Positions 49,779 to 62,460 of a stretch of 64,000 nucleotides of DNA are shown here, piece by piece. Position 1 is the first letter of the stretch, and each line of letters starts with the position of its first letter. The translations under genes and the position numbers were made by a program. The stretch lies in the NCBI RefSeq assembly GCF_021731785.1, contig NZ_JAKFWS010000012.1:1-64000 (forward strand), given 5' to 3'. The stretch is from Methylocystis sp. (GTDB lineage Bacteria; Pseudomonadota; Alphaproteobacteria; Rhizobiales; Beijerinckiaceae). Below the pieces are notes generated by a model. That model was not told the origin of the DNA. It saw only the letters and a program-made list of their open reading frames with translations, and ran no database searches.

Positions 49779-49862
49779 GTCATGGCCGGGCTTGTCCCGG
49801 CCATCCACGCGGCGCCGTTGCGTAGACCCGGCGTGGATGCCCGGCACAAGGCCGGGCATGAC
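49779..49862. repeat. 84-bp palindromic intergenic repeat
   Basis: GTCATGGCCGGGC (49779 on) and the closing GCCGGGCATGAC (to 49862) form long inverted ends, with CATCCACGC/GCGTGGATG arms inside. This GTCATGGCCGGG...GGCATGAC style repeat is abundant in Hyphomicrobiales intergenic DNA. It sits between the SDR gene start and the tsf terminator. Confidence 0.7.
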
Positions 49863-49883
49863 GCGGAGAGGTTTCGCGGAAAC

Positions 49884-58971: not shown

Positions 58972-61900
58972 ATGCATCTTCTCCCGCGCGATCTCCACAG
59001 TCTCGACGACGCCGGCGCGGCAGTCGACCTTGGGCAATCTCCCGCCGAAATCGTATTTCTGTCCTTTTCGGATTCCGAGCTGCGCCTGCTGGCGCGGCTC
59101 TATGAGCAACGGTCCGCGATACTTCCAAGCCTGCGCTGCGCGTCGCTGGCGCAGTTGAAGCACCCCTATTCCGTCGATCTTTATCTCGACACTGTCGCGC
59201 GACATGCGCGGCTGATCGTCGTGCGGCTGCTCGGCGGCAAGGACTATTGGGCGTATGGCGTCGAGCAACTGGAGGCGCTCGCGCGCGCGAAGAAAATCGC
59301 GCTCGCGATCACACCCGGCGACGCTCATGACGACGCGCGCCTGCAGCACGCTTCAACGCTCGATAACGCGACGCTCAATCGGATCTGGCGGTTCTTTCAG
59401 GATGGCGGTCCCGACAATCTTCGTTCCTTCCTCGGCCATGCCGCGACTCTCGCCGGCCATCCAGCGCAGTGGCGCGAGAGCGTTCCCGTGGCCAACGCCG
59501 GGCGATTCGCCGCCGCCTGCCGCGCCGACGGCGCGTTGCGGACGACGATCGTCTTCTATCGTGCGATGTTCCTCGCGGATGACGCCGCGCCGATCGTCGC
59601 GCTCGCCGACGCGCTGGCCGAGCGCGGATTTGCGGTCGAGACGATTTATGTGGCGAGCCTGAAAGAGGCCGAGAGCGAAGCCTTTGTGTCACGCGCGCTC
59701 GAGACCTTCGCGCCCGACGTCATCCTCAACGCCACCGCCTTTTCGGCGCGTCGCGACAAGGGAAGCGTGCTCGATCTTGCAGATGCGCCGGTGCTGCAGG
59801 TCGCTCTCGCGACCTCTTCGCGCGAAGCTTGGGAAGCTTCGACGCGTGGAGCGAACGGCGCCGATCTCGCGATGAATGTCGTCTTGCCGGAAGTCGACGG
59901 ACGCATCTTCACACGCGCGATTTCCTTCAAGGAGGAAGCGCCGCTGCGTCTTGCGGCGGAGTTCAGCGAAACGCGCCATGCGCCGGAGCGTTCGCGCATC
60001 GACTTCGTCGCAGAGCTCGCGTCGAACTGGGCGCGGTTGCGGCGCAAGCCCAATCAGGAAAAAAACCTCGCGCTCATTCTCTCCGACTATCCGGCGCGGC
60101 GCGGCCGCGGCGGCTACGCCATTGGCCTCGACGCGGAGGCGAGCGTGCAGGAGATCGTCTCGGCGCTAAGCGAGGCCGGGTATGACGTTGGCAATGATGC
60201 CGACAACGCGCTCCCCTCTCCCGAACTGAAGTCGGCTCTTGCCGACTTCAGCATGAATTGCGCAAACCGGGAACACCCGGTTTGCGTCGGGAGAGAGTGG
60301 CCTTGCGACGCAAGGTCGAGTGAGGGCCCTCATCCGTCGTCGCTCTGCGACGACTCCTTCTCCCGCCAGCGGGAGAAGGAGCGCGCGTCATCTTTGTTGC
60401 GATGCCTTGAAGATCAGAAGTTCGTCGTCAATTTTTCGCTCGACGACTATCTGGCGTTGCTCTCAACCCTTCCCACCGACTTCATCATAAGCGTCAGCGA
60501 CGCATGGGGCGCGCCGCAGGATGACCCCGCCGTCGTCGACCGAGCCTTGCGCTTCTCCTGCGTTGAAGCCGGCAAGCTCGTCGTCGCTCTGCAGCCCGAT
60601 CGGGGCGCGCGCACTGAGCGCTACGAGTCCTATCACGACGTGCAGCGGCCGCCGCGTCATGCCTATGTGGCCTTTTATCTCTGGCTGCGACATGTGCGAA
60701 AGATCGACGCGCTCATTCATCTCGGCGCGCATGGCACGCTCGAATGGCTTCCCGGCAAGTCGGTCATGCTGTCCGAGGCCTGCGCGCCGGAAGCGGTGCT
60801 CGGTCCGACGCCGCTCATCTATCCGTTCATCGTCAATGATCCCGGCGAAGCCGCGCAGGCGAAGCGCCGCGCCTGCGCGGTGACGATCGGCCATCTGACC
60901 CCGCCGCTTGTTAACGCCGAACTCTTCGACGCGGCGGCAAAGATCGAAACTCTGCTCGACGAATATGCGACCGCGAGCGCGCTCGACGCGCGTCGCGCGC
61001 GACTCATCGCCGGCGCCATCATCGACGAAGCCGAGCGCAGCGGGCTTGCATCAGAATGCGGCGTCTCGCGCGAGATGGAGATTGCCGAAACCTTGACGCG
61101 ACTCGACGCCTGGATGTGCGATCTTAAGGAGATGCGCATCGGCGACGGACTGCATGTCTTCGGCCGCGCTCAAGAAATTTCAAACGCCGATCCCACGCGC
61201 GACGCCTGCGCGCGCGCCGAACGCGAGGCGCTTATCGCCGCGCTTGCAGGCCGCTTCATTGAGCCCGGGCCGGCCGGCGCGCCGTCGCGCGGGCGCGCCG
61301 ACGTCCTGCCGACGGGCCGCAATCTCTATTGCATCGATCCACGCCATGCGCCGACGCAGACCGCCTATGACATCGGCCGCCGCGCCGCCGCCGAGATAAT
61401 GACGCGCCATGCGCAGCAGCATGGCGAATTCCCGCGCCACATTATGCTCGACCTGTGGGGCAGCGCAACGATCCGCACCGGCGGTGAGGATTTCGCACAA
61501 GCGCTTGCGCTCCTCGGCGTCGCGCCGCGCTGGGACGACGCCAGCGCGCGGGTCATCGGCTTTGAAATTCTGCCGCAGGCGCGACTCGACTTTCCGCGCG
61601 TCGACGTAACCCTGCAAATCTCGGGGCTGTTCCGCGACATGTTCGGAAATCTTGTCGCGCTTTTCGACGACGCCGTGCGCGCCGTCGCGGCGCTCGATGA
61701 AGACTCTGGCTTCAATCCACTGAAGGCGGCAGACGATCTGCGCCGCGTCTTCGGCGCCGCTGACGGAACTTACGGCCTTGGCGTGAGCGATCGCGTGCTG
61801 CGCGGCGAATGGTCGGACCGCGACGATCTGGGGCGCGCGTATCTTTCCGCCGCGAGTCACGCCTATGATCGCGCCGGCGAGAGCCAAGAGGCTGTCGCGG

Positions 61901-62460
61901 CGTTCAGCGCGCGCGTCGCCGCAGCCGATGCGCATGTCCATGTTCAGGACATGGCGGAGGTCGATGTTCTGATCGGACCTGCCTTCGCCGATTACGAGGG
62001 CGGCTTCGCCGCCGCCAACGCCCTGCTCGGCGGCGACGCCGATCTCCTGCACCTCGATTCGACGCGACCCGAGCGGTTGCGAGTGCGCGCGCTTAAAGAT
62101 GATATCGCGCGGGTTCTGCGCATGCGCCTCGCCAATCCGCGATGGTTGCAGGGCCAGATGCGGCACGGCCACCGCGGCGCCGGCGAGATTGCAGAGTCGA
62201 TCGACAATCTCTATGCCTTCGCCGCGACAAGCGGCCTCATCAGCGAGGCGCAATTCGACCTCGCTTTTGACGCCACCTTGGGCGATGATGCCACACGCGA
62301 TTTTCTTGCCGCAGAGAATCCCCGCGCGCTGGAGGCGGTGGCGCGCGCTTTTAGCGAGGCGCTCGCGCGCGGCTTATGGAAGACGCAGCGCAACAGCGTG
62401 CGCGACGCCTTAAGCGATATTGAGCGCCAAGAGGGAGGGCGTCTTGCAGACAGGGCCTGA
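58972..62460 (+). CDS. cobN: Cobaltochelatase subunit CobN, with in-frame hairpin-rich insertion
   Basis: The 1162-residue large subunit of the aerobic ATP-dependent cobaltochelatase inserts Co2+ into hydrogenobyrinic acid a,c-diamide. It shows CobN motifs LSDYPARRGRGGYAIGLD, IHLGAHGTLEWLPGKS, VNDPGEAAQAKRRACAVTIGH (in two parts) and the C-terminal MRHGHRGAGEIAESIDNLY. Residues about 419-470 (from ALPSPELKS to EKERAS) are unlike CobN, have many Ser, Arg and Cys residues and are encoded by five consecutive perfect hairpins at 60227-60381. The flanking CobN sequence is continuous on both sides, so the insertion is in frame and tolerated. CobS and CobT are not in the window. Confidence 0.92.
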   Translation: MHLLPRDLHSLDDAGAAVDLGQSPAEIVFLSFSDSELRLLARLYEQRSAILPSLRCASLAQLKHPYSVDLYLDTVARHARLIVVRLLGGKDYWAYGVEQLEALARAKKIALAITPGDAHDDARLQHASTLDNATLNRIWRFFQDGGPDNLRSFLGHAATLAGHPAQWRESVPVANAGRFAAACRADGALRTTIVFYRAMFLADDAAPIVALADALAERGFAVETIYVASLKEAESEAFVSRALETFAPDVILNATAFSARRDKGSVLDLADAPVLQVALATSSREAWEASTRGANGADLAMNVVLPEVDGRIFTRAISFKEEAPLRLAAEFSETRHAPERSRIDFVAELASNWARLRRKPNQEKNLALILSDYPARRGRGGYAIGLDAEASVQEIVSALSEAGYDVGNDADNALPSPELKSALADFSMNCANREHPVCVGREWPCDARSSEGPHPSSLCDDSFSRQREKERASSLLRCLEDQKFVVNFSLDDYLALLSTLPTDFIISVSDAWGAPQDDPAVVDRALRFSCVEAGKLVVALQPDRGARTERYESYHDVQRPPRHAYVAFYLWLRHVRKIDALIHLGAHGTLEWLPGKSVMLSEACAPEAVLGPTPLIYPFIVNDPGEAAQAKRRACAVTIGHLTPPLVNAELFDAAAKIETLLDEYATASALDARRARLIAGAIIDEAERSGLASECGVSREMEIAETLTRLDAWMCDLKEMRIGDGLHVFGRAQEISNADPTRDACARAEREALIAALAGRFIEPGPAGAPSRGRADVLPTGRNLYCIDPRHAPTQTAYDIGRRAAAEIMTRHAQQHGEFPRHIMLDLWGSATIRTGGEDFAQALALLGVAPRWDDASARVIGFEILPQARLDFPRVDVTLQISGLFRDMFGNLVALFDDAVRAVAALDEDSGFNPLKAADDLRRVFGAADGTYGLGVSDRVLRGEWSDRDDLGRAYLSAASHAYDRAGESQEAVAAFSARVAAADAHVHVQDMAEVDVLIGPAFADYEGGFAAANALLGGDADLLHLDSTRPERLRVRALKDDIARVLRMRLANPRWLQGQMRHGHRGAGEIAESIDNLYAFAATSGLISEAQFDLAFDATLGDDATRDFLAAENPRALEAVARAFSEALARGLWKTQRNSVRDALSDIERQEGGRLADRA
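60227..60381. repeat. String of five perfect hairpins inside cobN
   Basis: The hairpins, in order, are TGAAGTCGGC/GCCGACTTCA (60227-60250), CGCAAACCGGG/CCCGGTTTGCG (60261-60286), CCTTGCG/CGCAAGG (60301-60315), GTCGTCGC/GCGACGAC (60336-60354) and CTCCTTCTCCCGC/GCGGGAGAAGGAG (60354-60381). Loops are 1-4 bases. There is no stop in the cobN frame. The last hairpin resembles the CTTCTCCCGC...GCGGGAGAAG repeats common between genes in Hyphomicrobiales. Confidence 0.9.

Follow-up and report, generated by a model that had tools for sequence, protein, structure and literature searches.

Two nested palindromic repeats in frame within the linker of a Methylocystis CobN

The string of hairpins inside the cobN gene of a Methylocystis genome consists of two dispersed palindromic repeats, one lying within the other. 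Very probably they are non-autonomous and are tolerated as a linker of the enzyme that is translated and disordered. Element A would have come to lie in the flexible CobN linker, and later, in the lineage of the window (the whole 64-kb stretch of DNA that was analyzed), the small palindrome N would have lodged in A's first hairpin loop. As neither step would have shifted the frame or introduced a stop, the repeats would be translated, adding about 59 probably disordered and presumably harmless residues. Dispersed palindromes would land in genes too, and those copies that keep the frame, lack stops and lie in disordered linkers would survive. The CobN linker would be a safe harbor of this kind, in which different repeat families arrive, supplant one another and are lost among related species, and IleS and CobB would have such harbor sites as well.

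A hairpin string within cobN

The window lies in contig 3 of the 4.2-Mb source assembly (G000). Its cobN contains five perfect inverted repeats in frame at 60226-60381, with arms of 7-13 and loops of 1-4 bases. The first-pass annotation had described this string, assigned it residues 419-470 and read the frame as open throughout, and each of these statements agrees with our analysis (ORF 58972-62460, 1162 aa, open). The features of the region are as follows.

58972-62460, + strand: cobN, cobaltochelatase large subunit, 1162 aa (Pfam PF02514, E 1.1e-270)
60196-60387, + strand: CobN linker, residues 409-472, repeat-bearing and predicted disordered (AlphaFold, linker lengths)
60214-60379, + strand: palindromic element A, about 106 bp once N is discounted; 60214-60223 is its 5' piece and 60288-60379 its 3' piece
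60224-60287, + strand: palindromic element N (61-64 bp), nested in A's first hairpin loop; absent from loci L010 and L011
60216-60295, + strand: outer stem, A's first palindrome as opened by N; arms 60216-60224 and 60287-60295, around hairpins 1 and 2
60226-60251, + strand: hairpin 1 (in N), arm 11, loop 4
60261-60286, + strand: hairpin 2 (in N), arm 11, loop 4
60301-60315, + strand: hairpin 3 (in A), arm 7, loop 1
60336-60354, + strand: hairpin 4 (in A), arm 8, loop 3
60354-60381, + strand: hairpin 5 (end of A), arm 13, loop 2

Base 60354 is common to hairpins 4 and 5. Counting non-overlapping hairpins with arms of at least 7 and loops of 1-6 bases, the window holds 72, compared with a mean of 52.8 in 20 first-order resamples; the cobN cluster comprises four of them (five with the shared base) in 156 bases, and the resamples reached at most three in 160. 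A stepped scan of the window also found one other cluster of three, near 49881. The folding energy of the hairpin stretch as RNA is -119 kcal/mol (z -9.6), which none of 200 shuffles equaled. Because multi-megabase contigs of relatives carry inserts in the same linker, namely L011 in genome G018 (type A), L013 in G006, a contig of M. rosea SV97 (type B with N), and L016 in G023 (type B), the hairpin string is not a quirk of one assembly alone. Elsewhere in the window, at 49779-49862, a repeat of dispersed type lies near the other densest hairpin cluster (~49881) and encodes the peptide VMAGLVPAIHA..VDARHKAGHD on one strand and a similar peptide on the other.

On the host ORF, Pfam found only the CobN model. 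The solved CobN in PDB entry 9uk9 (E 6e-258) aligns to residues 1-409 and 487-751 of the window's protein, with a gap between, and has only 27 residues in place of the 409-487 gap. An AlphaFold model (33 sequences, mean pLDDT 81.8) gives pLDDT below 50 over 409-472, a segment predicted to be disordered, and predicts both sides well. Measured in 29 of 30 Methylocystis loci (the remaining one, L022 of G017, is broken), the linker spans 132 aa in the window, 102-130 aa in 13 other loci and 70-81 aa in 15. More broadly, across 92 distinct CobN rows the YAIGLD..WG stretch is 70-75 aa long in 48 and 66-83 aa in 63, 84-99 aa in 2, at least 100 aa in 22 and truncated in 5. An in-frame insertion thus lies within a conserved protein gene whose ORF stays open and which has insert-free orthologues. 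The earlier view that the inserted residues look unlike CobN and their flanks like it was sound, in that 9uk9 aligns with the flanks and the linker is short or unrelated in relatives; residues 419-470 are not common to all close relatives. The string is probably translated, as had been proposed, with the frame kept and the segment predicted to be disordered.

Two nested, dispersed elements

Uninterrupted copies of A, about 106 bp long, are found in L010, an orthologous locus, and in L011, where each combines the palindrome CCCTCTCCCG/CGGGAGAGGG with a pair of inner hairpins and, as its terminal part, the hairpin CTTCTCCCGC/GCGGGAGAAG. By BLAST, positions 15-106 of A correspond to 60288-60379 with 94.6% identity; hairpin 5 differs from that of L010 in one base pair, both of whose bases are altered (A-T to T-A). 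N brings two hairpins of its own, for a net gain of 60 bases in the window. The proposal of a hairpin-string element in cobN therefore needs amending: the segment is dispersed, keeps the frame and is missing or replaced by a different one in relatives, but it is two nested elements rather than one, and the linker around them carries repeats in numerous species.

The 231 bases around the hairpins have 25 matches at 16 places in the source genome, itself included, where palindrome match counts include both strands of one place. Across the genus, copies of N occur in 20 of 39 Methylocystis genomes, type-A peptides in 27 and type-B peptides in 30 of the same 39. Complementary flanks with a stem of at least 7 surround 28 of the 30 N copies read (shuffled flank letters: mean 2.1, maximum 7), which identifies N as a palindrome of other palindromes' loops. 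Being both palindromic and dispersed, the cobN segment would belong with the protein-coding palindromic repeats, the kind founded on RPEs.

These repeats have presumably moved to their present places. Y1/RAYT transposases number 0 in the source genome, and 8 of the 39 genomes of the genus have matches above the cut-off, so that RAYT was rejected as the mover. No target-site duplication was recognized by eye at the element edges.

Turnover of inserts at the CobN linker

The 14 enlarged Methylocystis loci have no single insert in common. By eye, inserts were assigned to types A, A2, B, C and D (and, in the same manner, to the IleS and CobB families), distributed as follows.

L009-L011: type A
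L012-L014 and L016-L019: type B (CCCCACCTCCCCC... type); L012 and L013 also carry N at another place
L015: type C beside an apparently collapsed B
L020 and L021: type A2; L021 plus a piece of C
L028: a piece of C
L033 (short, 81 aa): a decayed piece of C
L023 (short): remains of B
L143 (a named Methylocystis MAG): type D, an additional one

A cobN tree, which has 34 rows and was built with the linker excluded and L022 (G017, broken cobN) left out, requires at least 10 changes of insert type, 6 empty/filled changes and 3 changes of N. Types A and B interleave on this tree, with L011 (A) as sister to L013 (B with N), and A as a single clade is rejected (p-AU 2e-5, for a group named after the tree had been seen). 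For these reasons, the sequences suggest that exchange of linker alleles between species is likely, besides new insertion; since recombination may have moved alleles, the type changes need not all be fresh insertions. Between L012 and L016, over CobN 400-510, the insert is 97% identical, the nearest flanks are 60-81% identical, and the genes are otherwise 83-93% alike.

Taken further, the linker could be a recombination hot spot at which a few alleles (A, B, C) spread between species, the repeats providing homology and seldom inserting. This is possible but on balance unlikely as the main account. The interleaving of A and B, the sister position of L011 and L013, and the likeness of the L012 and L016 inserts relative to their nearest flanks are all what such spreading would produce, but the high-identity tract of the latter pair stops at the insert edges, and A2, C (in two clades), D and the inserts of other genera sit on separate branches, requiring separate arrivals.

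Repeated arrival of dispersed palindromes in a tolerant linker, the reading that we prefer, would extend beyond the genus. The CobN of Siculibacillus has a 308-aa linker whose DNA has 129 matches in its own genome, and the Pinisolibacter CobN insert has 13 (both counts including itself); both inserts lie in the same linker, after (not before) its small conserved helix. Further CobN inserts, repeat-like in appearance, occur in Alsobacter, a Phyllobacteriaceae MAG and Rhodopila. In G017 cobN (L147), an insert of another length causes a frameshift, and the ORF stops at a TGA just beyond; this break is either an insertion failure or a sequence error.

Inserts in other genes

Matches to the B peptide revealed in-frame inserts in three further proteins, LigD, IleS and CobB. 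The LigD insert lies between LigD_N and the ligase domain, and that of CobB between CbiA and GATase_3, in the same arrangement of B and N as in the CobN of L012. Among the best 30 loci from 39 genomes, IleS carries 72-120 aa at one site in 24 and 50-67 aa in six, with at least five families distinguished by eye; among the best 30 for CobB, 90-118 aa are present in 16 and 67-76 aa in 14. Enlarged proteins are over-represented in both counts, because the queries were themselves insert-bearing and only the best-scoring 30 loci were taken; at least four IleS frames outside the best 30 are only 1002-1008 aa long. Beside the IleS insert site, tandem duplications (DKSIASGFIAMDK) are present in L251, L255, L261, L262, L270 and L272.

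Within the source genome, four genes contain such inserts: cobN, ileS, a DNA methylase gene and cobB, the insert of the last being a putative dispersed repeat. Its ileS (L254, G000:C6:44288-47368) has an insert, also in frame, from a different repeat family, with 35 genome matches at about 20 places including itself, many of half-element length or on both strands. In the C-5 cytosine DNA methylase ORF (L245:2-1009, G000:C22), residues 113-141 are encoded by an in-frame palindromic repeat of type C. Copies from 18 regions of this genome, comprising 23 repeat stretches, were examined for lying in genes; a single stretch, that of the methylase, belongs in frame to an ORF that is open. The caller of in-gene frames was rough, recognizing five of six known controls (the cobN copy served as a control; IleS L212 was missed), and the in-gene count is therefore a lower bound. 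The first-pass annotation had drawn attention to copies across the genome and their place in reading frames: the copies are there (the 25 matches at 16 places), and this rough caller set only the methylase beside the cobN control.

In-gene candidates from peptide matches comprised 20 loci, with the ORFs of 10 scanned by Pfam and L218 and nine others outside the scan; L211 was used only as a LigD orthologue. Three candidates (L214, L216 and L228) were rejected, having no Pfam match and ORFs that look antisense or spurious. Three more (L215, L221 and L223) were rejected as in-gene inserts because the repeat lies upstream of the domains, maybe in an untranslated 5' extension.

Relation to known palindromic repeats

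Translated palindromes were reportedly called a unique feature of Rickettsia in the title of a 2002 work by Ogata. Mosaic repeats of related bacteria include RIME. These are Rhizobium-specific intergenic mosaic elements, so named in the title of a work cited in PMC2873474; they are intergenic by name, and are likened to the present repeats by description, not by sequence.

The available parts of three reports describe RPEs as palindromes of ~100-150 bp in several families, dispersed and also lying in frame in genes for conserved proteins with the ORF intact (PMC10969869, PMC2229807, PMC4316617). Wolbachia palindromic elements appear to be of a comparable kind, to judge by the title of a cited work. 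Like RPEs, the Methylocystis repeats are palindromic, dispersed, of several families and in frame without breaking the ORF, a likeness of description and not of RPE sequence. They differ in belonging to a free-living methanotroph, with 63% GC in the window, in the turnover of families at the same site, in nesting and in having units of ~61-130 bp.

In the accessible portion of PMC3733652, REPs are palindromes 20-40 bp long that carry either a GTAG or a CGTC tag, those with GTAG being linked to RAYT transposases; they are mostly intergenic, and in many bacteria some lie in frame in conserved genes, including those for tRNA synthetases, DNA ligase and recB, the recB site being about the same in two Xanthomonas species. 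Compared with GTAG/CGTC REPs, the present units are longer and Y1/RAYT is absent from the source genome, a distinction made on length and transposase and not on the tag. Where RPEs had been named as the known case, translated palindromes indeed have that precedent, but it is not the sole one, as the same portion of PMC3733652 documents intragenic REPs too. MITEs such as ERIC, as far as the available text of two reports goes, are non-autonomous repeats whose ORFs form in-frame fusions with genes (PMC2229807, PMC10969869); N, by comparison, sits between complementary host flanks, and terminal inverted repeats with target duplication do not feature in the data presented here.

Translated palindromes (RPEs) and intragenic REPs are thus the same kind of thing and already known. 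What is new is the genus, the nesting of one element in another, and the way in which several families are captured and turned over, time and again, at the same sites of CobN, IleS and CobB; we found no published work on CobN, IleS or Methylocystis palindromes beyond that on REPs, RPEs and MITEs, which is no proof of absence. In a methanotroph genus, translated palindromes appear as a recurring process at fixed sites of conserved enzymes. Empty, filled, nested and decayed states coexist in the genus, and therefore the route from repeat to protein segment, the retention of hairpin versus peptide, and the rate of insert turnover are testable. For annotation, there is a warning that repeat-derived residues say little about enzyme function.

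Constraint on residues and hairpin arms

Four orthologous insert sets, all small and of shared ancestry, were compared: CobN-B (7 rows), IleS-B (9), CobB-J (8) and IleS-E (4). Their insert pN/pS values are 0.91, 0.80, 1.06 and 0.67, respectively, against 0.08-0.37 in the flanks (~100 codons on each side), which suggests that the residues are under little or no constraint in these related sets. Synonymous divergence is lower in the inserts (0.04-0.13) than in the flanks (0.23-0.35), contrary to what simple neutral drift predicts. Diversity at paired versus unpaired positions is 0.043 versus 0.268 in CobN-B, 0.057 versus 0.184 in IleS-B, 0.035 versus 0.101 in CobB-J and 0.006 versus 0.091 in IleS-E, with pairing structures derived from the same alignments and hence biased toward conserved columns. 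Strong conservation of the translated hairpin arms is what simple drift leaves unexplained; it may result from selection on the fold, conversion between copies or recombination.

Pair-keeping double changes number 4 cells in IleS-B, 2 in CobN-B and 0 in both CobB-J and IleS-E, and broken pairs outnumber them throughout (7, 4, 7 and 1 cells, respectively). In type A, both bases have changed at two pairs of one hairpin when L010 is compared with L011, and at a single pair when it is compared with L009. Away from these sets, 37 pairs of loci with shared flanks were identified, and 32 were kept after five were set aside (four in IleS or LigD, one the same place twice). The element is at least as alike as both flanks in 24 of the 32 and less so in 8 (pairs found by similarity, not all proven intergenic); at other loci as well, therefore, the palindrome tends to be conserved at the nucleic-acid level.

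Exaptation could account for conserved arms if the hairpins were kept for a role in mRNA (or DNA), for example slowing the ribosome where two domains meet and so giving the upstream part of CobN, CobB, LigD or IleS time to fold, a proposal that we consider improbable. Position speaks for it, with inserts between Pfam domains in LigD and CobB and in the predicted disordered linker in CobN, and so do the paired positions, ~3-15 times less diverse than the unpaired ones across the four sets. Likewise, the diversity of unpaired positions in CobN-B (0.27) is close to that of synonymous sites in the flanks (0.26-0.31), so that CobN type B is not simply young. However, double changes fall short of broken pairs in every set, the insert is missing from many species, and, because orthologous copies elsewhere are as conserved as both flanks or more in most pairs, the conservation seems to be the element's rather than the genes'. 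It is likewise improbable that the CobN, IleS, CobB and LigD linkers are docking sites for many palindromic families, at which selection keeps the hairpin fold, not the peptide, at the domain boundary.

Open frames and RNA removal

Out of six frames, A has 4 free of stops, A2 4, B 1, C 3 and N 4, no more than resampled sequences have, so chance suffices for an open frame. The suggestion that a hairpin element had been selected to lack stops is consequently not supported, and the sequence analyses give no sign of the other route proposed with it, excision from RNA. Excision, or a translational bypass, such that the peptide is never made, is very improbable. The strong, self-contained fold would suit it, but the frame is open, and 29 of 30 Methylocystis CobN loci, with several insert families, read through; such frame-keeping counts against RNA mending, since mended RNA would not need it. 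Furthermore, the G017 insert of other length leads to a frameshift with a TGA just beyond, and nothing in Rfam reached the gathering level for 60000-60600 (best E 0.02; two matches below gathering were taken as chance).

Least credible of all is an ordinary functional CobN loop encoded by palindromes through coincidence: insert-free CobN does have a linker of varying length, but close relatives carry unrelated residues or a short linker, pN/pS is 0.91 for inserts of type B (no other CobN insert type had sufficient orthologues), and the DNA of the segment is dispersed in the genome.

Apart from the linker, CobN has a second site, at residues ~165-187, with inserts that look repeat-like by eye in L028, L031, L145, L149, L161, L192 and L206, from several genera.
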